From assembly GCA_020853375.1 (NCBI GenBank), contig JADYZA010000224.1, positions 1-11,294 of the forward strand: DNA of 11,294 bases, read 5' to 3'. This document shows positions 2,640-10,581 of the stretch, in pieces. Position 1 is the first letter of the stretch. The number at the start of each line of letters is the position of its first letter. A program made the translations under genes and the position numbers. The notes beneath the pieces were generated by a model. It was not told where the DNA came from. It saw nothing but the letters and a program-made list of their open reading frames with translations, and searched no databases. Origin of the DNA: Verrucomicrobiota bacterium. GTDB taxonomy: Bacteria > Verrucomicrobiota > Kiritimatiellia > Kiritimatiellales > Tichowtungiaceae.

Positions 2640-3659
2640 ATGCTACTCAACAAAACCATACGGCTCTTTCTCGACAGCATCGGACGGCGCGAAGAATACG
2701 AGTTTTACCTCAACAAATTCCAAGCCGCCCGCGCCGACTGCTTTGCCTTGCTCGTTCCCGATCTCGAAAGCCTTGAGCAGGGATCCGAGGCGCTGGCCTT
2801 CGATCTGAAGTTTCTACTGAAGCTCGGATTGCGGCCCGCCGTTGTGCTGTGTGGAATCGATGCCGCCGCCAAATGGAACCTGCTCAAAGACAACTCGCTG
2901 TTTGAACTCACCGTTTTTCCAAGCATTGGAAAGCGGAAAGCCGGCATTCCTGTTTTCGTCGAAGAAAACATCCAAACACTGGAAAGTCTGCTGCAAAAAG
3001 TTCCGGTAGTCGGTAAGCGGGTGCATTTCATCCGCGCCGGTGGCGGGTTGAACACGGAATATTATTATGTCCAGAAACCGGACGCATCGCTTTTGCCAGA
3101 AGACAGAGCAATGGCCGAAACCGCCGCCGCCCTGCTCGAAGCCCGGCCCGGAACCCATATTTCCGTCACGTCGCCAATCAATCTGCTGAAAGAAATTTTC
3201 ACCGTTAAAGGTGCCGGAACCGTTTTCCGGCGCGGCTCCGTCATTCTTTCCGGCCCGACAGACTCACCAAAACTGCTGGCGTTGCTCGAGGAAAGTTTCG
3301 GCAAAACGCCGCGAGACGGTGTGTTGAATGGTGTCGATAAAATTTATTTTGAGGAAAATTACCGTGGAGCCGCCCTGCTCGAAGAGCAACCGGAAGGACT
3401 TTACCTCTCAAAATTCGCCGTCGGCCCCGAGGCTCGCGGTGAAGGCCTGGCTCAAGAACTGTGGGAAGAAGTCTGTAAAAACCATGCCGCCTTTTTCTGG
3501 CGGTCGCGGAAAAATAATCCGATCAACCAGTGGTATGACCGGCATGCCGATGGACGACACACCGCAGGCGACTGGATTGTTTTCTGGCGCGGTATGGATG
3601 CGGCCGCAATTCCCGGCCTGATCGCTTTCTGTCAGGCCCGCTCCGCCGACTTCATCTGA
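2640..3659 (+). CDS. N-acetylglutamate synthase-like protein (amino acid kinase-like fold plus NAT/DUF619 acetyltransferase)
   Basis: Likely transfers acetyl from acetyl-CoA to glutamate, the first step of arginine synthesis. The C-terminal third (about residues 235-335) carries the hallmark pattern of the vertebrate/Xanthomonas-type synthase acetyltransferase: YLSKFAV near 254, RGEGLAQELW, FFWRSRKNNPINQWY, and DWIVFWRGM at the end. The N-terminal part (about 1-200) aligns in layout with an amino acid kinase fold (FALLVPDLESL, LRPAVVLCG, HFIRAGGGLN) but lacks an obvious kinase glycine loop, so it is probably non-catalytic. At 339 residues it is shorter than bifunctional synthase-kinases (about 440). 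A stop at 2622 in frame leaves ATG 2640 as the first ATG; no clear Shine-Dalgarno. Residues 93-98 (FPSIGK), 111-115 (IQTLE) and 121-126 (VPVVGK) are encoded by palindromic repeat copies. It ends 10 bases from the convergent thiL with no terminator between. Confidence 0.75.
   Translation: MLLNKTIRLFLDSIGRREEYEFYLNKFQAARADCFALLVPDLESLEQGSEALAFDLKFLLKLGLRPAVVLCGIDAAAKWNLLKDNSLFELTVFPSIGKRKAGIPVFVEENIQTLESLLQKVPVVGKRVHFIRAGGGLNTEYYYVQKPDASLLPEDRAMAETAAALLEARPGTHISVTSPINLLKEIFTVKGAGTVFRRGSVILSGPTDSPKLLALLEESFGKTPRDGVLNGVDKIYFEENYRGAALLEEQPEGLYLSKFAVGPEARGEGLAQELWEEVCKNHAAFFWRSRKNNPINQWYDRHADGRHTAGDWIVFWRGMDAAAIPGLIAFCQARSADFI
2916..2932. repeat. Palindromic repeat copy 1 (exact core)
   Basis: TTTCCAAGCATTGGAAA: perfect 7-bp arms, 3-base centre. 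It lies inside the acetylglutamate synthase-like gene, encoding FPSIGK. Confidence 0.9.
2970..3015. repeat. Palindromic repeat copy 2, paired, decayed
   Basis: ATCCAAACACTGGAA at 2970-2984 (one change in the core; encodes IQTLE) and, starting 31 bp later, TTCCGGTAGTCGGTA at 3001-3015 (strongly decayed; encodes VPVVGK). The second half is accepted mainly because spacing and peptide match the other pairs. Confidence 0.5.
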
Positions 3660-3669
3660 AACAGCGCCG

Positions 3670-4542
3670 TCACGTGAAATGCTCAAAGGCTTTACGCTCC
3701 AGAACGGTGCCGTCGAGCGTCAGAATTTCCGGCTGAGCGGTGATGGTTCCAATCCTTGAAAACTGCTGATCAAAATTTTCCAGACATTGGAAATCAAATG
3801 CATCGGCTTCATCGGCGTGAACGGTGAAGAGCAGTTCAAAATCCTCGCCGTCGAACAGCGCCTGCTCCAGATTCCCAAACTTCGGAATCCGTTCGCTTTC
3901 CAGCGCCGCGCCAACGTTGGAGGCTTTGAGAATATGGCGTAAATCAGTGGCGAGTCCGTCGCTGATATCCATCATGGAACGGACGAAGCCGGACTGCCGC
4001 AACCATTTGGCCTCTTTGATGCGCGGCATAAAGGTCAGGTGTTTACCGCTTATGAACGATCCGCCGAGCGGGCCGGTGACATAGATGACGTCGCCAGCGT
4101 GCGCGCCGGAACGCAACAGCGCTTTACCTTTTGGCACACGCCCAACGCCAAAAACGTGCAGTTCAAGGGTCGGCCCTTGAGAGAGGTCGCCGCCGACAAG
4201 ATCGACATCGAACAGCTTCCGAATCTCGGAAACTCCGGCATAAATTTTTTCCAAGGTTTGGAAATCCTGTTCCGGCGGCGCGACGAGGTTGATCAAAAGA
4301 TACTGCGGGTCGGCTCCCATCGCGGCGAAGTCGCTCAAGACACGGGCCGCGGCTTTCCAGCCGATGGCTTCAGGAGCGGTGCCTGGCGTGAAGTGAACTC
4401 CGCTGATGAGCGGGTCGGTGGTGAGAACGAGGTCGTAGTGCGCGTCGAGCGGCAGAACGGCGCAGTCGTCACCAACGGCTTTCAGGTTTTTCGTCAAGGC
4501 CGCGATCGCTGTGTGTTCGCCCATTTGTTTAAGTGTGCTCAT
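3670..4542 (-). CDS. thiL: Thiamine-monophosphate kinase ThiL
   Basis: Phosphorylates thiamine monophosphate to thiamine diphosphate with ATP in the cytoplasm. The family motifs are in order: MGEHTAIAALTKNL at the N terminus, GDDCAVL (24-30), TTDPLISGVHF (41-51), VLSDFAAMGADP, VGGDLSQG, MDISDGL (D192-L197) and DGEDFELLFT (from D231); these supply the Mg-ATP binding acids of the AIRS/PurM-like fold. Length is 290 residues, slightly short of the usual 310-330. I chose ATG 4542 over an ATG 36 bases upstream because MSTLKQMGEH matches the usual ThiL start. That start lies 14 bases inside the end of the rnfD-like gene, so it is the last gene of the operon and probably translationally coupled. Four palindromic repeat copies lie inside it, encoding FQTLE (94-98), VSEIRK (104-109), FQCLE (251-255) and FSRIGT (261-266). 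Confidence 0.93.
   Translation of the reverse strand: MSTLKQMGEHTAIAALTKNLKAVGDDCAVLPLDAHYDLVLTTDPLISGVHFTPGTAPEAIGWKAAARVLSDFAAMGADPQYLLINLVAPPEQDFQTLEKIYAGVSEIRKLFDVDLVGGDLSQGPTLELHVFGVGRVPKGKALLRSGAHAGDVIYVTGPLGGSFISGKHLTFMPRIKEAKWLRQSGFVRSMMDISDGLATDLRHILKASNVGAALESERIPKFGNLEQALFDGEDFELLFTVHADEADAFDFQCLENFDQQFSRIGTITAQPEILTLDGTVLERKAFEHFT
3747..3793. repeat. Palindromic repeat copy 3, paired
   Basis: TTCCAATCCTTGAAA at 3747-3761 and TTTCCAGACATTGGAAA at 3777-3793, each with one core change; their 15-mers start 31 bp apart. Both lie in thiL, where the minus strand encodes FQCLE first and then FSRIGT. Confidence 0.75.
4217..4264. repeat. Palindromic repeat copy 4, paired
   Basis: TTCCGAATCTCGGAA at 4217-4231 (self-complementary arms with a compensated A/T to G/C change) and TTTCCAAGGTTTGGAAA at 4248-4264 (exact core); the 15-mers start 32 bp apart. 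In thiL the minus strand encodes FQTLE and then VSEIRK. Confidence 0.8.
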
Positions 4543-5545
4543 GTTGATTCTTATGCTGTCCGGCAAGATGCTGCGCAAAACGGTGGCGACGGCGATGAAT
4601 CAGCCAGCCGCGCATCCGGAAGGCGGCCCGGTCAATGGTCGGCGTGAGCAGGTTCATGGTGAGGATGGAGTAGACGATGCCTTCGGAATAAAAGGTGTAA
4701 TGACGGATGCATCCGTTGATGGTTCCAGCCAGCGCTCCGGCAATGAGTCGTCCGGTGCGGCTGGCGGGTGAACTCTTCGGGTCTGTGACGATAAAGACGG
4801 CAACGAAAAGAACCGCTCCGGAGAGCAGATGAAAGCCAACCGGCTCACCGACGGCGGCGCAGGTGAGCGCGAAAGCGGTCAGGAAAGCGACGCCGCCGCG
4901 CCAGTCGATGATGCCGCGCACGAAGAGAATGATTCCGAAAAGGATCAGTACAGGACGGAACAGTTCGCCCGGCGCGCCGGGTATGATTTGATAGAGGCCT
5001 TCCCAGTTTTCGTGAATGCGTCCGGTGAAAAGATTCATCAGTCCGGTGATGTGTTCATCACTATGCCAGAGCTCGATCGGCGTGGCGCCGGTGAGTCCGT
5101 CGAGTTGCTGTCCTGAATAATTCCAGCGGACAATTTCGGCTCCGAAAACCAGCATGAGAAAGAACCGCCCGGCAACTGCGGCGTTGAAGCGCAAACTGTT
5201 CGATCCCGACATTTTGATCAGGCCAACGGAAACCAGCAGAGCGAGGCAGATGGTGCGCACCGGCATATCGGCGGGAACACTCATCACCAGCAGTCCGGCG
5301 GTCAGCGCGGCCCCGGCGTTTTTGATGCGCAGATTGCCGTCCCGCAGGAACCGGTAAAGCAGTTCAATCAAGGTGGCCAGAACCATGTAGCCGGAAAGCT
5401 TGAGGATGAATAGCGGTTGATAAAAGAGACTGTAGAGCCCGCCAAGGATCAACAGCATCGCGACGCACCAGAATGTCTGGACGGCGGAGCTGTCGGTAAC
5501 AGTCAGGTACGGCGGGCCGGAAATCGGTTTACGGATTACAGACAT
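4529..5545 (-). CDS. rnfD: RnfD/NqrB-like flavinylated membrane subunit
   Basis: Integral membrane protein of the RnfD/NqrB family, which carries FMN covalently bound to Thr and passes electrons across the membrane in Rnf and Na+-NQR complexes. Seen here: about nine to ten hydrophobic segments, the flavinylation motif DGLTGATP with D149 and candidate FMN-Thr T155, the family motif FIVTDPKSSP in the C-terminal half, and LRDGNLRIKNAGAALTAGLL near the N terminus. Length 338 matches RnfD. ATG 5545 is preceded by GGAAGG with five intervening bases (GTAAAAA counted to the start) and overlaps the upstream RnfC-like stop by 10 bases. The basic, His-rich tail (RRRHRFAQHLAGQHKNQHEH) is overlapped by thiL. 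NqrB is the alternative name; the RnfC-like neighbour favours RnfD. It contains no palindromic repeat. Confidence 0.86.
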   Translation of the reverse strand: MSVIRKPISGPPYLTVTDSSAVQTFWCVAMLLILGGLYSLFYQPLFILKLSGYMVLATLIELLYRFLRDGNLRIKNAGAALTAGLLVMSVPADMPVRTICLALLVSVGLIKMSGSNSLRFNAAVAGRFFLMLVFGAEIVRWNYSGQQLDGLTGATPIELWHSDEHITGLMNLFTGRIHENWEGLYQIIPGAPGELFRPVLILFGIILFVRGIIDWRGGVAFLTAFALTCAAVGEPVGFHLLSGAVLFVAVFIVTDPKSSPASRTGRLIAGALAGTINGCIRHYTFYSEGIVYSILTMNLLTPTIDRAAFRMRGWLIHRRRHRFAQHLAGQHKNQHEHT

Positions 5546-6555
5546 TTTTTACCTTCCCGTAAATGAACCGCCAGAGGAATACGCGCCGGACAGACAGCGG
5601 CGCAGGCTCCACAGAGAAAGCATTCTTTCATCTGAGATTTGAACGCCTCGCTGTGCGGCTGTTTTTTACGGATAATGTCCACCAAGGCGATCGGATGCAG
5701 TTTGAGCGGACAGACATCGTAACAGGCGCCGCACCGGATGCAGTCGGTTTCTTTGGTTTCCGCGCGACTCCGATTTAACACGAGAACGGAGGTTGTCCCC
5801 AGCGTTACCCGCTCGTCAGAGGAAACGGCGCGGCCCATCATCAGCCCACCGGCAATCAAAATTTGTCGTTCCTGATCGTATGCGCATCCGGAGGATTCCA
5901 GCAGTTCACTGAATGTGATTCCAACAGGAGCAATCAGGTTTTGATAACAACCGGCATCGGGTGCCACCAGCGTGAGCGGACGTTCAACCGCCGCAATTCC
6001 GTCCAGGATCGCCCGTCCTGCAGCGCGTAAGGTTGCGGCGTTCTGTACCAGAACTCCAAGATGGAATGGAAGCGCGCCCGGCGGAGGCATGCGGCGGAGC
6101 AGTTTGCGAAGGATCAGCCTTTCCGCACCAGCGGGGTAGGTTCGCTTCATGATGAGCAGGTCGAATGAAGGATAGAGTTTGCAGAGTTGTTTGATCAGCT
6201 CCGGCTCTTTTTTAACCGCGAGAACAATCCTCTTCGCGCCGACGGCGCGGGCAGAAGCTTCCGCTCCGGCAATGATCCAGCGTGAGTGATAAAGCAGTAA
6301 AGCCTGATCGATGGTGATTCCCGGCTCACATTCAACCGCGTTGATCACCAAGGTGTGGACGCCGCAACTGGCGCGGATTTTCCGAGACACAGGAAATATT
6401 CCGCCACCCATCCCGACGAGTCCGATGGTTTCAAGAAAGGCCGGATAATCCGCCGTGCTGAAGGAAACCGGCGCGGGCAGATTCATCGGTAAAAGGCGCG
6501 GCTCAAGGATTCCGGACGGTACAGAAAATCCGGGGTGCTGGATTTTTCGAAACAT
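5536..6555 (-). CDS. rnfC: RnfC-like NADH/flavin and dicluster iron-sulfur electron-transfer subunit
   Basis: Peripheral cytoplasmic electron-input subunit related to RnfC, NqrA and the 51-kDa subunit of complex I. Domains in order: a short N-terminal RnfC barrel-hybrid start (HPGFSVPSGILEPRLLP), a complex-I 51K-like FMN/NADH domain with GLVGMGGGIFPVSRKI and VINAVECEPGIT (about 45-80), a SLBB-like region (about 180-250), then two [4Fe-4S] motifs: C272, C275, C278, C282 (CIRCGACYDVCP) and C312, C315, C318, C322 (CFLCGACAAVCP). Length 339 is near the minimum for RnfC (usually 430 or more); it lacks the long C-terminal extension and has a reduced N terminus. ATG 6555 follows the FMN-binding gene by 6 bases, with AAGG shortly before it. 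In standard Rnf it moves electrons between NADH and ferredoxin; which donor is used here is unknown. Confidence 0.86.
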   Translation of the reverse strand: MFRKIQHPGFSVPSGILEPRLLPMNLPAPVSFSTADYPAFLETIGLVGMGGGIFPVSRKIRASCGVHTLVINAVECEPGITIDQALLLYHSRWIIAGAEASARAVGAKRIVLAVKKEPELIKQLCKLYPSFDLLIMKRTYPAGAERLILRKLLRRMPPPGALPFHLGVLVQNAATLRAAGRAILDGIAAVERPLTLVAPDAGCYQNLIAPVGITFSELLESSGCAYDQERQILIAGGLMMGRAVSSDERVTLGTTSVLVLNRSRAETKETDCIRCGACYDVCPLKLHPIALVDIIRKKQPHSEAFKSQMKECFLCGACAAVCPARIPLAVHLREGKKCL

Positions 6556-6561
6556 AGGGCC

Positions 6562-7080
6562 TTATTTTGAAAGCGGAGTTTTCGCCCAGTCCGGATTTTT
6601 TTCAATTTCTTCAACCACGGTTTTTGCCAGAAGGTTGAAATAGAGATAGATGCTTTCCTGATAGCGGGTCGCACCGGTCACTGCATCCACTTTTTGCAGG
6701 TTGCCGTTGGCATCCTTCACTGTGCTTCCGGAAAAAGCTTTGATGGCATCAGTCACTTTCTGCTGCTTGGCGGGTTCTTTGATGCGGGCAATATCGGGAA
6801 TCGAGGCGGAGCTGATCACCCACTGACCGTCCTTTTTCGTCACGGCAACCAGGCCGTTGACCGTGGCATAGGTTTTGATCGACCGCATGGCCGCGCCGGA
6901 AATCACATTGCCCTGCGCGTCATAGCCGAGATAAACATCACTGACAGCGGGTGAATACCCTTCCTTATGACTGTAGGAAGAAATATCTCCGAGCGACTTT
7001 ATAGCGAACTGATCGAATTCACCGGCATAGCCCCATGCGGAAAGTAGAAATACGCACAATAAAACGGCATTTTTTTTCAT
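6562..7080 (-). CDS. Secreted FMN-binding domain protein, RnfG/NqrC-like flavoprotein
   Basis: First gene of the operon. An N-terminal signal peptide (MKKNAVLLCVFLLSAWGYAG) is likely cleaved after it, placing the protein in the periplasm. The rest is a small FMN-binding domain like that of RnfG and NqrC: repeated small-residue strands (YLGYDAQGNVISGAAM, GLVAVTKKDGQW) and the flavinylation motif DAVTGAT, D132 to T138, where Thr138 is the expected site of phosphoester-linked FMN added by ApbE (no apbE in the window). At 172 residues it is shorter than RnfG and has only a signal peptide, not a clear membrane anchor, at its N terminus. I chose ATG 7080 because AAGGAG lies 7 bases upstream and the signal peptide begins there; a longer frame upstream has no support. 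It probably exchanges electrons with the RnfD-like protein on the outer face of the membrane. Confidence 0.82.
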   Translation of the reverse strand: MKKNAVLLCVFLLSAWGYAGEFDQFAIKSLGDISSYSHKEGYSPAVSDVYLGYDAQGNVISGAAMRSIKTYATVNGLVAVTKKDGQWVISSASIPDIARIKEPAKQQKVTDAIKAFSGSTVKDANGNLQKVDAVTGATRYQESIYLYFNLLAKTVVEEIEKNPDWAKTPLSK

Positions 7081-7087
7081 GATCCAA

Positions 7088-7093
7088 CTCCTT
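7088..7093 (-). promoter_or_regulatory. Shine-Dalgarno site fixing the FMN-binding protein start
   Basis: AAGGAG on the minus strand with a 7-base spacer to ATG 7080. It rules out the 45-codon longer reading of the same frame. Confidence 0.75.
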
Positions 7094-7213
7094 CTGTTTC
7101 GCCACAACGTACTCTTTCGCCTACCGGAAATTAAGTAAAAGTATAAAAAATCAGCTGGGCAGAATTGGGTTGAAGATGGCGGATGGCTGTTCCAGACTGC
7201 ATTCCGTTTTCGC

Positions 7214-7220
7214 AAAGGAG
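7214..7220 (+). promoter_or_regulatory. Shine-Dalgarno site fixing the epimerase start
   Basis: AAAGGAG with a 7-base spacer to ATG 7228. It supports that start over the in-frame ATG 45 bases upstream. Confidence 0.75.
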
Positions 7221-7227
7221 CTTCTGC

Positions 7228-8271
7228 ATGAATAAGAAGGTTTTAGTGACGGGGGGCAGCGGATTCCTCGGAATCAATATGATCCGCCACCTGCTTCGCC
7301 AGGGTATCACCGACATCACCGTACTGGACCTCGTCGAGTTCGACTATCCGGAAAAAGACCGGATCAAAGCGGTGCAAGGCGATATCCGCAACGGCTCAAC
7401 TGTGCGAGAGGTGATGAAGCACGTCAACTGGGTCATTCACACCGCAGCCGCCCTACCCCTTTACACCAAGGAAGAGATTTTCTCCACGGACATCGAAGGC
7501 ACCCGAACTCTTTTGGCGGCGGCGGCGGCCGAAAAGGTCGAGCGGTTTGTGCATATCTCTTCGACCGCCGTTTACGGAATTCCGGATCACCATCCGCTGT
7601 ACGAAACCGATCCGCTGATCGGCGTCGGTCCGTACGGCCACGCCAAAATCGAAGCGGAAAAAGTCTGTCTGGACTACCGCGCCAAAGGGATGTGCGTGCC
7701 GATCATCCGCCCGAAGTCATTCGTCGGCCCGGAACGGCTAGGGGTTTTCGCCCTCTTCTATGACTGGGCGAAAGATGCGAAAAATTTTCCAATGATTGGA
7801 AGCGGACACAACCGCTACCAACTGCTCGATGTTGAGGATCTCTGCGCGGCAATCTATCTCTGCCTGACCCAGAACGAGGCGACGGTTAACGACATCTTCA
7901 ATGTCGGCGCGACCCACTTCACGACGATGAAAGAGGATTATCAGGCCGTGCTCGATCGCGCCGGATTCGGAAAAAAGGTGATTGGAACTCCGGCTAAGCC
8001 GCTGATCTGGGTCTTGCGGATTCTGGAATTCTTCAAACTGTCGCCACTCTATAAATGGGTTTATGAAACCGCCTGCGAAGATTCGTTCGTCTCGACGGAA
8101 AAAATTGAACAGAAGTTGAACTTCCATCCGAAGTTTTCCAACAAACAGGCCTTGGTGCGCAACTATGAATGGTATCTCGCCAACCTGCACACCTTCGCAG
8201 GCAAAGGCGGCATTTCGCACCGCGTGCCGTGGAGTCAGGGTATTCTGAAATTCTTCAAACTGTTCTTCTAA
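7228..8271 (+). CDS. NAD-dependent epimerase/dehydratase, extended SDR family
   Basis: Extended short-chain dehydrogenase/reductase acting on a nucleotide sugar or a related substrate that I cannot name. The Rossmann glycine motif is TGGSGFLG (G9, G12, G15), an acidic residue at the end of beta 2 (VLDLVEF) suggests NAD preference, D-x-R follows (GDIRNG), and the catalytic pair is Y136 and K140 (PYGHAK), with Ser at HISSTAVYG (109-117). The C-terminal half has the family pattern FPMIGSGHNRYQLLDVEDLC (187-206) and then a helical substrate-binding part. It resembles the 3-beta-hydroxysteroid dehydrogenase/isomerase-like branch in its TAAALPLY segment, but this is weak. Length 347 is normal. First gene of a plus-strand cluster; the lipoprotein gene follows after 2 bases. 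FPMIGS at 187-192 is encoded by a perfect palindromic repeat. Confidence 0.87.
   Translation: MNKKVLVTGGSGFLGINMIRHLLRQGITDITVLDLVEFDYPEKDRIKAVQGDIRNGSTVREVMKHVNWVIHTAAALPLYTKEEIFSTDIEGTRTLLAAAAAEKVERFVHISSTAVYGIPDHHPLYETDPLIGVGPYGHAKIEAEKVCLDYRAKGMCVPIIRPKSFVGPERLGVFALFYDWAKDAKNFPMIGSGHNRYQLLDVEDLCAAIYLCLTQNEATVNDIFNVGATHFTTMKEDYQAVLDRAGFGKKVIGTPAKPLIWVLRILEFFKLSPLYKWVYETACEDSFVSTEKIEQKLNFHPKFSNKQALVRNYEWYLANLHTFAGKGGISHRVPWSQGILKFFKLFF
7787..7801. repeat. Palindromic repeat copy 5 (exact core)
   Basis: TTCCAATGATTGGAA: perfect 7-bp arms around a single central G. It encodes FPMIGS in the epimerase gene. Confidence 0.85.
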
Positions 8272-8273
8272 TT

Positions 8274-8996
8274 ATGAAAAAGCTGATTCTATTCATCTCC
8301 TGCGCGCTACTGCTGACCGGCTGTGGCAAAAACAGCGCGCAACTCGATACGGCGGACGAAAAAGACGCCCGCGTCCGCAAGGGCCTTGAACTGGTTCAGC
8401 AGAAAAATCTGAATGATGCCGTGAAACAGTTCGATGCCGCGCTGATCAAAAAACCAGAACTCGGACGTCCCGACCTTGAGTTGGCGATGATTTATCATCA
8501 GCAGAAAAATTTTGTCCGCGCCATCTACCACTATGAACGCTACCTTGAAAAACGTCCGCTCACGGAAAAACGCGCGCTGATTCAGGAGCGGATCAAACAA
8601 GCCAAAGTCTCGCTGTCCGGAGAAGTCGGCGGAGCCGGTGTCGATGTTTCGGAAGAACTGGTACGGCTGACCCGCGAGAATAATATGCTCCGCAAACAAC
8701 TCGAAGCCGCAGGTGGCGGAAGCGCCGCCACGGCAACCAGCGTAAAAACTCTTCTGACCGAACCCCCGCCACGGCCCGCACCCTCCGCCCCAGTCGTTGA
8801 AAAACCGGCGGCTCCAGCCAAGCCAGCCCGGACGTATACCGTGCGCCCCGGCGACACGCTTTCGCGCATCGCCGGTTCTGTTTACGGCGACGCTTCGCAG
8901 TGGAAAAAAATCTACGAAGCCAACCGCGACCAAATGAAAAATGAAACGGATATCAAAATCGGACAATCGCTTGTCGTCCCGGCCTTTGGAAATTAA
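8274..8996 (+). CDS. Lipoprotein with TPR-like region, coiled coil and C-terminal LysM domain
   Basis: Envelope lipoprotein likely to bind peptidoglycan. It has a type II signal peptide with lipobox LLTGC (Cys17); residues about 35-95 form two TPR-like helical hairpins (RKGLELVQQKNLNDAVKQFD, then MIYHQQKNFVRAIYHYERYL). A short heptad stretch (SEELVRLTRENNMLRKQLEA, about 125-145) predicts a coiled coil, a Pro/Ala-rich linker follows, and a single LysM domain ends the protein (about 187-236, TYTVRPGDTLSRIAGSVYGD through IGQSLVVP). LysM binds N-acetylglucosamine-containing glycans. ATG 8274 starts 2 bases after the epimerase stop with no Shine-Dalgarno, so translation probably depends on the upstream gene. 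An in-frame ATG at 8169 lies inside the epimerase and lacks the signal peptide logic, so I rejected it. Confidence 0.85.
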   Translation: MKKLILFISCALLLTGCGKNSAQLDTADEKDARVRKGLELVQQKNLNDAVKQFDAALIKKPELGRPDLELAMIYHQQKNFVRAIYHYERYLEKRPLTEKRALIQERIKQAKVSLSGEVGGAGVDVSEELVRLTRENNMLRKQLEAAGGGSAATATSVKTLLTEPPPRPAPSAPVVEKPAAPAKPARTYTVRPGDTLSRIAGSVYGDASQWKKIYEANRDQMKNETDIKIGQSLVVPAFGN

Positions 8997-9411
8997 GACG
9001 ACGTGGGGGGTGATCACGTTGATGCTCAACGACAAGGGCAAAGCGGTGGCGCTGAATTTTCCATATCTCGGAAAAGCGCCGAGCGAACCATTCTCGATGG
9101 AAAAGTTCCAAACGTTGGAAGATTTAGTGCGAAACTTTCCGAGCATTGGAAAGCTGGCCGGCACAGGATTCCAGCAAGATGTTTGGACGGCTCTGAGGAA
9201 AATACCGCGCGGACAGACACGCACGTACGGAGAGATTTCCGCCGCCATCGGAAAACCGAAGGCCGTGCGCGCCGTCGGCACCGCCTGCGGCGCGAATCCT
9301 CTGCCGGTTTTCATTCCCTGCCACCGAGTGGTTGCCAAAAATGGACTCGGTGGATTTGGTAGCGGACTGCCGTGGAAAACTCTCCTTTTAAAAATGGAAG
9401 GTGCTTTATGA
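8986..9411 (+). CDS. ogt: Methylated-DNA--protein-cysteine S-methyltransferase (Ogt/MGMT)
   Basis: Suicide repair protein that takes the alkyl group from O6-alkylguanine. The C-terminal domain is classic: GTGFQQDVWTALRKIPRGQT, the helix-turn-helix with TRTYGEISAAIGKPKAVRAVG and arginine finger, active site PCHRVV with Cys112, and GLGGFGSGLPWKTLLLKMEGAL at the end. The N-terminal domain is short and degenerate. Start is uncertain: TTG 8986 gives MEIKTTWGVITLML, a good first strand, and overlaps the lipoprotein stop; ATG 8941 would add 15 residues and a 56-base overlap; ATG 9022 has a GGGGGGTGATC purine run before it but would cut the first strand. Three palindromic repeats fill residues 25-56 (FPYLGK, FQTLE, FPSIGK). 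Its stop overlaps the ferredoxin start as ATGA. Confidence 0.9.
   Translation: MEIKTTWGVITLMLNDKGKAVALNFPYLGKAPSEPFSMEKFQTLEDLVRNFPSIGKLAGTGFQQDVWTALRKIPRGQTRTYGEISAAIGKPKAVRAVGTACGANPLPVFIPCHRVVAKNGLGGFGSGLPWKTLLLKMEGAL
9057..9075. repeat. Palindromic repeat copy 6, decayed core
   Basis: TTTTCCATATCTCGGAAAA: outer 6-bp arms are intact and the inner bases have drifted (two core changes). It encodes FPYLGK in ogt and is the first of three copies there. Confidence 0.6.
9106..9152. repeat. Palindromic repeat copy 7, paired
   Basis: TTCCAAACGTTGGAA at 9106-9120 (exact core, encodes FQTLE) and TTTCCGAGCATTGGAAA at 9136-9152 (one change, encodes FPSIGK); the 15-mers start 31 bp apart. This is the clearest pair. 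Confidence 0.9.
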
Positions 9412-9707
9412 AAAAACAAACGACTCCGTATCAGTGCCATATTTTTGTTTGCTCAAATGTACGTGAGAATAATCCCGAAAACCCCGGTTGCGGAGCCAAA
9501 GGCGGCGGCGCACTGAAAGATCAGTTGAAAGATGCGGTGAACACACGCGGCTGGAAAGGCAAGGTGCGCGTCTCCACTTCCGGTTGCATGGGCCTCTGTG
9601 GAACCGGCCCCAACGTGATGCTCTATCCGCAAGGGATCCATTTCTCTGCCGTCACAGAAGTCGATTTGCCCGTAATCCTAGACACGATAAAAACCCTTCT
9701 CGCGTAA
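9408..9707 (+). CDS. Thioredoxin-like [2Fe-2S] ferredoxin
   Basis: Small electron carrier of the thioredoxin-fold (Shethna/Aquifex type) ferredoxin family. Expected ligands are C15, C28, C60 and C64 (HIFVCSN, NPGCGAKGGG, STSGCMGLCGTGPNVMLYP); spacing of 13, 32 and 4 residues fits the family closely. C10 is extra. Length is 99 residues, usual for the family. I chose ATG 9408 because GGAAGG lies 6-7 bases upstream and MKKQTTPYQCHIFVC matches the family start; a longer in-frame reading from 9372 would run inside ogt. It overlaps ogt by 4 bases (ATGA), implying coupled translation. The redox partner is not visible in this cluster. Confidence 0.9.
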   Translation: MKKQTTPYQCHIFVCSNVRENNPENPGCGAKGGGALKDQLKDAVNTRGWKGKVRVSTSGCMGLCGTGPNVMLYPQGIHFSAVTEVDLPVILDTIKTLLA

Positions 9708-9717
9708 TCAAACCGTC

Positions 9718-10398
9718 ATGAAACCACTTTTGTTCATTTTGCTCGTAGCACTGGCGCTGGTATTCGCCGTCAGGCTGCTTCGTGCCGACGAACCGGCCAG
9801 ATCCGAGCGAGCAATCCGTGTGGCGTGTGTCGGCGACAGCATCACGTACGGCGCGCGGATTTCTAACCGCGAGGCGAAGTGTGATCCGACACAGCTCGGT
9901 TCAATGCTTGGAACCAATTATTCGGTACGGAATTTCGGCGTGAACGGAGCGACTCTGTTGAAGCACGGCGATATTCCCTACTGGCGGATGCGCGCTTTCA
10001 AGGCGGCGCAGGATTTCAAGCCGGACATAGCGGTGATCAACCTCGGAGCCAACGATGCCGCCCCTTACAATTGGATTTATAAACACGAATTTGTGCGGGA
10101 TTACACCGAACTGATCCAGAATTTTAAGTCGAACGGATGTAAAACAGTCTGGATATGCTATCCGGCCCCGACTTATCCAGGCCCGTATGATTTCACCGAC
10201 CCGATCGTCGTCAACGAAATCATTCCGATGATCGACGAGATCGCACGGCAAACCGGCGCAAAGATTATTGATCTGTACCGCCCGTTGAGCGGGAAGTCAG
10301 AACTTTTTCCGGATACGGTTCATCCGAATGCCGAAGGAGCACGGCTGATGGCAAAAGAGGTCTTCTCAGCCATCACAGCGGACGGAAATGCTCCGTGA
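9718..10398 (+). CDS. Secreted SGNH/GDSL-family esterase
   Basis: Probable carbohydrate or lipid esterase exported from the cytoplasm. The N terminus (MKPLLFILLVALALVFAVRLLRA) is a signal peptide or anchor. All four SGNH blocks are present: GDSIT with nucleophile S41, G77 in GVNGATLL, N112 in LGANDA, and D199-x-x-H202 in DTVHPNAEG. Length 226 is standard. Sialate or acetyl-xylan esterases of polysaccharide degraders have this layout, but substrate cannot be inferred. ATG 9718 is 10 bases after the ferredoxin stop with no Shine-Dalgarno, and it is the last gene of the cluster. A palindromic repeat begins right at its stop codon. Confidence 0.87.
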   Translation: MKPLLFILLVALALVFAVRLLRADEPARSERAIRVACVGDSITYGARISNREAKCDPTQLGSMLGTNYSVRNFGVNGATLLKHGDIPYWRMRAFKAAQDFKPDIAVINLGANDAAPYNWIYKHEFVRDYTELIQNFKSNGCKTVWICYPAPTYPGPYDFTDPIVVNEIIPMIDEIARQTGAKIIDLYRPLSGKSELFPDTVHPNAEGARLMAKEVFSAITADGNAP

Positions 10399-10412
10399 TC
10401 CAAGCATTGGAA
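10398..10412. repeat. Palindromic repeat copy 8, intergenic (exact core)
   Basis: ATCCAAGCATTGGAA starts at the last base of the esterase stop codon. Its 16 bases 10399-10414 are identical to 2918-2933. As a transcript hairpin it would have only five to six base pairs, so it is a weak terminator at best. Confidence 0.85.
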
Positions 10413-10444
10413 AGTGGTAGTCGGCGGGAATCCGATGGAAAAGA

Positions 10445-10521
10445 TGGTCGGGGTGACAAGATTCGAACTTGCGACTTCTACGTCCCGAACGTAGCGCTCT
10501 ACCAGGCTGAGCCACACCCCG
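10445..10521 (-). tRNA. tRNA-Pro (anticodon CGG)
   Basis: A full cloverleaf can be read on the minus strand. Acceptor CGGGGTG (10521-10515) pairs with CACCCCG (10455-10449), the D arm contains GGCTCAGCCTGGTAGAGC, the anticodon stem CTACG/CGTAG encloses loop TTCGGGA giving anticodon CGG for codon CCG, and the T arm contains GTTCGAATC. Discriminator A and CCA are encoded (10448-10445), giving 77 bases. This is the only RNA gene I see in the window. Confidence 0.95.
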
Positions 10522-10538
10522 CTAAAAAATGAGATGGC

Positions 10539-10566
10539 ATCGTACTCGGCCTGTTATTTTTGACAA
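10539..10566 (-). promoter_or_regulatory. Likely sigma-70-type promoter of tRNA-Pro
   Basis: On the minus strand TTGTCA (10566-10561, five of six consensus) and TACGAT (10544-10539, four of six) are 16 bases apart. The -10 ends 17 bases before the tRNA, leaving a short leader. A degenerate palindromic repeat abuts the -35 on its upstream side. Confidence 0.5.
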
Positions 10567-10581
10567 GTCCAAGCTTAGGAA
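10567..10581. repeat. Palindromic repeat copy 9, intergenic, decayed
   Basis: GTCCAAGCTTAGGAA, one change in the core, lies immediately upstream of the predicted -35 of the tRNA-Pro promoter. Confidence 0.5.

Follow-up and report, generated by a model that had tools for sequence, protein, structure and literature searches.

What maintains a short palindrome that recurs in unrelated genes and between genes is the question raised by the window, the whole stretch of 11,294 nucleotides analysed here, which comes from a genome of the class Kiritimatiellia. A preliminary description had listed five exact copies of the core TCCAANNNTTGGA (2918, 4250, 7788, 9107 and 10399), five copies with one change (2971, 3748, 3779, 9138 and 10568) and two with two changes (4218 and 9060), and our scan recovered every one of them. 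Dinucleotide shuffles held on average 0.04 exact copies (largest count 1), and 0 of 200 reached five. The longer form TTCCAANNNTTGGAA is complete at four of the five exact sites, the site at 10399 having A instead of T as an outer base. One more one-change site, at 9900, was absent from the earlier list. Altogether, 19 matches with two or fewer changes were found against 5.87 expected, so that the six remaining two-change matches (822, 998, 1294, 3874, 6347 and 6686) may well be due to chance.

The NAT-domain gene (2640-3659, plus strand) contains the exact 15-mer TTCCAAGCATTGGAA at 2917..2931 and, 53 bp away (five helical turns correspond to 52.5 bp), a one-change site with the core TCCAAACACTGGA at 2970..2984; like all sites below, these carry no strand assignment. 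In the ThiL-like AIRS gene (3670-4578, minus strand), a one-change site with the core TCCAATCCTTGAA at 3747..3761 is followed 31 bp (three turns) further on by the one-change site TTCCAGACATTGGAA at 3778..3792. The two-change site TTCCGAATCTCGGAA at 4217..4231 does have complementary changes on both arms, as had been proposed, and lies 32 bp before the exact 15-mer TTCCAAGGTTTGGAA at 4249..4263, which encodes FQTLE on the minus strand, a peptide present without the DNA site in some relatives. The NAD epimerase gene has the exact 15-mer TTCCAATGATTGGAA at 7787..7801. Within the Ogt-type methyltransferase gene (8941-9411, plus strand), the exact 15-mer TTCCAAACGTTGGAA at 9106..9120 is accompanied by the one-change site TTCCGAGCATTGGAA 31 bp past it (9137..9151) and by the two-change site TTCCATATCTCGGAA at 9059..9073, which is 47 bp away and out of phase (4.5 turns). 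The one-change core TTCAATGCTTGGA at 9899..9913, in a GDSL lipase-like gene, may be a chance match. The exact 13-mer with outer T replaced by A (10398..10412) coincides with the stop of this GDSL-like gene and occupies the convergent junction between it and tRNA-Pro (10445-10521), whereas the one-change core TCCAAGCTTAGGA at 10567..10581 is located 46 bp beyond the tRNA-Pro 5′ end, 169 bp from the 10398 site (16 turns are 168 bp). The sites thus do fall, as described before, in at least four unrelated genes (NAT-domain, ThiL-like, epimerase and Ogt-type) and beside a tRNA; the names ThiL and Ogt are our reading of Pfam matches.

The observation is real and extends far beyond the window. The incomplete genome from which the window comes has 233 copies of TTCCAANNNTTGGAA in 1.55 Mb and 511 of TTCCRRNSNYYGGAA, against 0 for the reversed control of each. 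The preliminary description had proposed such a count together with a control preserving codon usage; under codon resampling, the coding sequence of G000 has 35 sites against a mean of 0.67, and that of G048 has 21 against 0.03. Within the class, 25 of 81 genomes hold 58 to 1,339 copies and the other 56 hold 0-5; none of 159 genomes outside it has more than four. Enrichment is limited to the window's class, apparently Kiritimatiellia, within which the motif is patchy. In the window's genus, close relatives range from 62 to 793 copies, the density being roughly 30-380 exact copies per Mb. Genome counts, class restriction and the codon null all support the claim of a genome-wide signal common to a clade. 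The suggested link to Kiritimatiellota fits as well: among the matches listed, the phased double site occurs in MAGs mostly titled Kiritimatiellae, Kiritimatiellales, Kiritimatiellia, Kiritimatiellaeota, Lentisphaerae, Verrucomicrobia or uncultured bacterium.

Along G009, a single contig, 20 evenly spaced stretches contain 45 exact sites (mean 2.25, variance 3.8) with no obvious origin-terminus trend, judged without a formal test. The first contigs of G188, G191, G250, G101, G052 and G049 (84 kb) have no site. Site density is lower in divergent than in convergent gaps in all four samples, at small counts, and is highest at convergent gene ends. Since gene calling simply took the longest ORF, predicted starts often lie too far upstream and the split between coding and intergenic DNA is approximate.

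When every 6-base inverted repeat with a gap of 0-8 was scanned, the motif or its nested forms came out on top in three of three motif-rich genomes. The same scan revealed no replacement palindrome in 100 kb each of four motif-poor genomes: alternatives did not exceed three copies in G016, G139 and G145, and G046 had only CG-rich words, with up to seven copies. Among one-change variants, 117 of 155 are altered at the two inner half-site positions, leaving 38 for the four outer positions, and 170 of 175 exact sites have G or C as the centre base, a profile that looks like the tolerance of a binding site. Middle bases and flanks form lineage dialects; the middle bases are near-fixed in some genomes, being TCA in 102 of 104 sites of one of them. 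In one genome we also read a weak symmetric CG about 13.5 bp on each side of the dyad.

Comparison of orthologues shows that point substitutions create and remove sites; these changes are often synonymous, and in most cases no indel is involved. Twelve window genes were compared, with comparable site positions coming only from ThiL, the epimerase and Ogt; ThiL rows G034 and G023 and Ogt row G009 were ignored as misread in the alignment, and in the tree G033 and G034 form long branches that probably reflect misreading. At seven of ten coding site positions ungapped orthologues lacking the site exist, and at the other three all non-carriers are gapped (36 ungapped and 33 gapped non-carriers over the ten). 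The peptide FPMIG at the 7787 site is identical in all 12 genus genomes where it was found, and the DNA site varies; for both FQTLEKIY and FPMIG, synonymous differences alone separate carriers from non-carriers. Arrays of sites are found inside or beside genes, and some of them grow.

The most informative feature is helical phasing, on which the preliminary description was silent. Successive sites are separated by whole helical turns in the window's genus and in several other lineages, most often by three (31/32 bp), with two, four, five and more turns also represented; the observed spacings include 31/32, 62/63, 94/95 and 126 bp, and G134 and G148 mix steps of 22 and 30/31 bp. In G009, the only genome sampled at even steps, the best period is 10.40-10.65 bp. 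Because distances within a cluster are not independent, the pooled test (G009, G000 and G018-G020, with G048 kept out) was restricted to nearest neighbours; after removal of distances of 31 and 32 it gave a best period of 10.40 (n = 36, p = 0.0001), and among distances above 60 bp, again excluding 31/32, a weak signal is left (n = 22, p = 0.025), both p-values assuming a uniform-distance null. Match listings guided the choice of the G000 contigs and of the G048 and G057 stretches, which are therefore not random samples; the G018-G020 stretches were chosen for holding ThiL or Ogt, and loci from a scan of genome contigs, selected for a 31/32 pair, were excluded from period tests. In G048 almost every spacing is 31/32, which puts the best period at 7.75 to 16 rather than 10.5, so that this genome alone cannot separate the helix from a fixed 31.5-bp pitch; its power at the codon period is also not small where pairs are close. 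Phasing is not universal, since G018-G020, which rank among the most motif-rich genomes, show neither a clear 31/32 pile-up nor phasing (70 sites in 160 kb, 14 neighbour pairs). Further phased pairs of a looser motif are present in motif-poor G054 and G056, and phased pairs also occur on three viral contigs.

Spacing by whole turns makes a protein partner likely. We give a probability of roughly one half to the reading that the palindrome is recognized by a putative homodimeric protein, cooperative along one face of the helix in several lineages, for which an architectural role (chromosome folding or packaging) is more likely than an operator-like, promoter-bound one. The putative sequence-specific protein of the class would recognize a half-site of TTCC and two further bases at which G is tolerated in place of A, around a dyad occupied by G or C. 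Its cooperative binding to same-face sites, with three turns preferred and two, four, five or more also allowed, may take place in the window's genus and in several other lineages, and could let clusters be wrapped or bridged. Copying would also explain the near-fixed middle bases mentioned above, which we count, together with the growth of some arrays, against this reading. More tentatively, a class-specific architectural protein might read the palindrome in genes and gaps alike and form a helically phased nucleoprotein, the sites serving as a sequence-encoded chromatin address of which lineages tune the centre, the flanks and the pitch (31, 32, or mixed two and three turns).

It is possible, though unlikely, that the motif labels the cell's own DNA, which would then be taken up preferentially during natural transformation, and that biased recombination spreads it. 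Uptake accords with the hundreds to thousands of copies dispersed over the genome, dialects in centre and flanks, gains by substitution, the maximum at convergent gene ends and an apparent transfer alongside restriction genes into motif-poor genomes. The ComEC family is present in 51 of 52 genomes, in rich and poor ones alike, and the one without a match, G161 (94% complete), has 271 sites. However, the phased viral pairs count against uptake and, to our knowledge, uptake signals are not usually palindromic and do not need helical phasing. Less probable still is a HIP1-like product, whereby copies would arise and persist through the action of a methyltransferase or mismatch system on the motif: a target with twelve fixed bases and a restricted centre is long for a methylase, phasing is left unexplained and poor genomes have no alternative palindrome in 100 kb each. 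On the other side, this is a dispersed palindrome in genes, produced by substitution and far above expectation genome-wide, coding DNA included, and cyanobacterial HIP sites track methyltransferases according to part of PMC4390886.

We consider it improbable that the sites are operators of the class's Lrp/AsnC-family regulator acting as a global transcription factor. Lrp-like proteins, as portions of PMC2995911 describe them, bind clusters of palindromes or semi-palindromes two or three helical turns apart, centre to centre, and can wrap DNA. Palindromes at two or three turns are found here too, G018-G020 excepted, and four of eight genus genomes examined have a site about 52-56 bp upstream of the Lrp start codon (exact in G009, one change in G000 and G003, two in G005), with an exact site further upstream in G010. 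Nevertheless, the family occurs in 52 of 58 genomes (once in 48), those with 0-5 sites included, so its presence does not track the sites; its putative recognition helix is, in our reading, acidic and does not follow site number; no site is near the Lrp gene in G001, G006, G007, G018, G019, G020, G036 and G048; and the deficit in divergent relative to convergent gaps counts against operators. A similarly low probability attaches to a mobile or selfish palindromic repeat (REP, BIME, RPE or MITE type), already weakened by the ungapped site-free orthologues at most coding positions and the purely synonymous differences at FQTLEKIY and FPMIG. Such a repeat is suggested by the near-fixed middle bases, by the three positions with gapped non-carriers only and by the arrays, within which some spacers resemble one another; a six-site array (L151) within a nucleotidyltransferase gene looks inserted. 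The Y1 (RAYT) transposase tie expected of REP/RAYT repeats was not found: motif-rich G101, G191 and G057 lack the gene, and zero-site genomes, among them G115, G261 and G045, carry many copies of it. Nor did most of the ten site positions in the three window genes show the in-frame insertion expected of Rickettsia palindromic elements.

None of the candidate proteins Lrp, Y1 transposase, ComEC and HU follows the distribution of the motif. HU occurs in all 36 genomes examined, rich and poor, and thus gives no sign that a known packaging protein has been replaced, which we count against the main reading. An autoregulated regulator upstream of the arrays did not emerge, no DNA-binding family (best 25 of 104) matching two or more of the 61 of 63 array-upstream genes scanned, the two left out being from L157 and L166.

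Over-represented words are common in bacterial genomes, but we know of no other that combines a long palindrome with maintenance inside genes, at synonymous positions, and with spacing in whole turns. Literature searches for the motif itself and for palindromes in Kiritimatiellota returned nothing, and wider searches gave nothing of this kind among the matches listed (titles and abstract openings). If the role is architectural, the packing of a bacterial chromosome can be written into coding sequence. Phasing offers a direct route to the protein partner, and the uneven copy number among close relatives of one genus provides a natural comparison for finding its gene.

Of the analogies drawn in the preliminary description, HIP1 and uptake sequences proved useful, both matching a dispersed motif with dialects that is made by substitution in coding DNA, whereas Rickettsia palindromic elements fit poorly, the L151 array aside. 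Like those elements and REP/BIME, the present palindromes occur in and between genes and in arrays, but most of the coding positions compared here reflect substitution, not insertion. CRISPR arrays likewise have repeats at regular intervals, separated by spacers that mostly differ but are nearly constant in length; here, the repeats are also found singly in genes, and normal aligned gene sequence lies between two ThiL sites. Lrp/AsnC (FFRP) clusters are likewise palindromic and grouped at two or three turns (PMC2995911), but are local and regulatory, while the present copies are genome-wide and mostly in genes. Neisseriaceae uptake sequences are similarly abundant, form lineage dialects and occur both within genes and at their ends, yet are not known to be palindromic or helically phased. 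HIP1 and the alternate HIPs of cyanobacteria are also dispersed, strongly over-represented, present in coding DNA and patchy between relatives; HIP1, however, is an 8-mer tied to methyltransferases (PMC4390886, in part), whereas the present motif has 12 fixed bases around a 3-base centre and is helically phased in several lineages.

The preliminary description had reported five exact TCCAANNNTTGGA sites in the window, and all five are found at the positions it gave, where dinucleotide shuffles expect 0.04. With up to two changes allowed, the window holds 19 motif matches versus 5.87 expected. The window's own genome (G000; 1.55 Mb, 87.9% complete) contains 233 copies of TTCCAANNNTTGGAA, with the reversed pattern absent, and 511 copies of TTCCRRNSNYYGGAA, which includes the tolerated changes, versus 0 for the control. 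Rnf-type genes located between the ThiL-like and epimerase genes (window 4529-7215, minus strand; Pfam identifies RnfD and RnfC, and we read the third as RnfG-like) contain no exact site.

The signal formed by this motif is real, spans the genome, is restricted to one class and is under selection or drive at the DNA level. We counted copies in the window's genome and 57 relatives: 51 of these 58 have at least one, genus members carry 62 to 793 each and genomes outside the genus 0 to 1,339; reversed controls in the same genomes number 0 to 3. We also drew 240 genomes from the phylum and counted the in-class and outside tallies from the result rows: 25 of the 81 in-class genomes carry 58 to 1,339 copies and the other 56 carry 0 to 5, while none of the 159 genomes outside the class has more than four. 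A search for site pairs spaced by 31 or 32 bp (three helical turns) in named genome contigs yielded at least 116 stretches. Most titles among those listed are Kiritimatiellae, Kiritimatiellales, Kiritimatiellia, Kiritimatiellaeota, Lentisphaerae, Verrucomicrobia or uncultured bacterium, the few others including Spartobacteria and one labelled Firmicutes. We infer that the motif-bearing class is Kiritimatiellia. Our literature search, with most subscription journals outside its reach, found no description of the motif.

We labelled genomes as rich (at least 100 copies per Mb) or poor on a ThiL tree covering 30 of them; the label needs seven changes, at least four of them on well-supported branches, with two rows probably misread. 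We searched 14 motif-poor genomes, and three of them (G050, G054 and G056) have an exact phased pair within or next to a restriction or nucleotidyltransferase gene; the genes at these pairs (loci L248, L049 and L050) match HSDR_N, ResIII and, below threshold, SMODS. This suggests that the pairs arrived with defence genes from motif-rich relatives. Other, looser phased pairs also exist in G054 and G056. In addition, phased pairs or arrays are carried by three viral contigs (L172/L173, L174 and L175), one of which has matches to terminase, portal and major head, another to transposase, DNA transposition protein and terminase small subunit, and the remaining one to head-closure.

Within genes, the motif acts at the DNA level. 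When synonymous codons are resampled, the 35 sites in G000 coding sequence compare with a mean of 0.67, and the 21 sites in that of a second genome, G048, with a mean of 0.03; all three reading frames are occupied. The epimerase peptide FPMIG, found in 12 genus genomes and identical in all of them, coincides with an exact site only in G000, G002, G009 and G010 (233 to 793 copies per genome). The site is one base off in G003 (595 copies) and G013 (379), and other codons are used in G005, G006, G007, G008, G011 and G012 (62 to 160). For the ThiL peptide FQTLEKIY, the codons of G000, G003, G007 and G013 contain the site, and those of G008, G010 and G012 are synonymous choices that disrupt it. Since this site is present in G007 (71 copies) and missing from G010 (793), the link between copy number and any given site is not strict. 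Ten site positions were compared among orthologues of the ThiL, epimerase and Ogt-type genes, with 36 ungapped and 33 gapped non-carriers altogether. Ungapped site-less orthologues occur at seven positions, and gapped ones only at the other three, indicating that conserved places change mainly by substitution; loops of altered length are also seen.

Most motif copies are genic because most DNA is genic, yet coding DNA has the lowest density (0.24 to 0.38 per kb). Convergent gaps have the highest in all four samples (0.94 to 5.17 per kb) and divergent gaps fall below them (0.35 to 3.77 per kb), both gap densities resting on small counts of 3 to 10 sites. This ranking is unlike the expectation for promoter operators. 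Among 61 scanned genes with arrays upstream, no DNA-binding family matched two or more (best 25 of 104 families). A six-site array with a 31-bp period lies within a nucleotidyltransferase gene (L151:609-778), whose NTP_transferase match is split into two stretches, the best one stopping at the array start; the array is likely an in-frame expansion. Arrays can also be duplicated, as two of them in G057 (L043 and L046) have spacers in common and nearly identical downstream sequence.

As for what is recognised, most one-change variants (117 of 155, chiefly A to G) affect the two inner positions of the half-site, the other 38 affecting the four outer positions. Of 175 exact sites, 170 have G or C at the centre. 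Testing every 6-base inverted repeat with gaps of 0 to 8 ranked the motif or its nested forms top in G000, G009 and G048, and found no substitute palindrome in G016, G139, G145 and G046. The middle bases and the flanks differ between lineages as dialects: the middle is TCA/TGA in 102 of 104 sites of one genome and GCC/GGC in 27 of 37 of another. In the former genome, a weak symmetric CG about 13.5 bp on each side of the dyad suggests, by our reading, a putative footprint near 29 bp.

Several lineages show helical phasing of the motif. Stretches chosen from hit listings in G000, G048 and G057 have accumulations of spacings at 31/32, 62/63, 94/95, 126, 157/158 and 189 bp. In G009, sampled at even steps over 400 kb, spacings fall within about 2 bp of 10.5-bp multiples, and the periodogram optimum is 10.40 to 10.65 bp. 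The result for G000 alone is noisier: the best period is 9.65 to 10.90 when pairs may have one or two changes and 14.4 when the six exact pairs are used. Power at 10.5 bp in this genome exceeds the uniform null (p 0.0002 to 0.005). Periodogram phases lie within 0.75 bp of zero. G048 alone shows no 10.5-bp step, its best period being 7.75 to 16 because its spacings are nearly all 31/32 or multiples. Codon-period power is at most 2.0 for pairs 60-250 bp apart and reaches 14.4 for close pairs in G048. Nearest neighbours pooled from G009, G000 and G018-G020, excluding distances of 31 and 32 bp, have their best period at 10.40 bp (n=36, p=0.0001 versus uniform distances), the signal being weak at distances of at least 60 bp (n=22, p=0.025). 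Spacings of 22 are mixed with 30/31 bp in G134 and G148. Stretches of G018, G019 and G020 (L321-L323, L363-L367) are very motif-rich yet unphased, unlike other lineages sampled: 160 kb with 70 sites revealed neither phasing nor a clear 31/32 pile-up (30, 32 and 33 once each). Phasing is thus a trait of some lineages, the window's included.

Our best reading, to which we give a probability of about 0.5, is that the motif copies are sites of a putative architectural protein, a dimer that would bind them cooperatively. The presence of Y1 transposase, ComEC or HU does not track the motif. Neither does that of an Lrp family protein, encoded in 52 of the 58 genomes, poor ones included; its putative recognition helix, by our reading, is acidic and does not track site number. 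In four of the eight genus genomes examined (L264, L266, L267 and L269), the Lrp-family start codon is preceded at about 52-56 bp by a site, either exact or carrying one or two changes; no site was found near this gene in the other lineages examined. Lrp-like regulators bind palindromes at two- or three-turn spacing (PMC2995911), and the motif would work like such an Lrp site cluster, with palindromes two or three turns apart in both.
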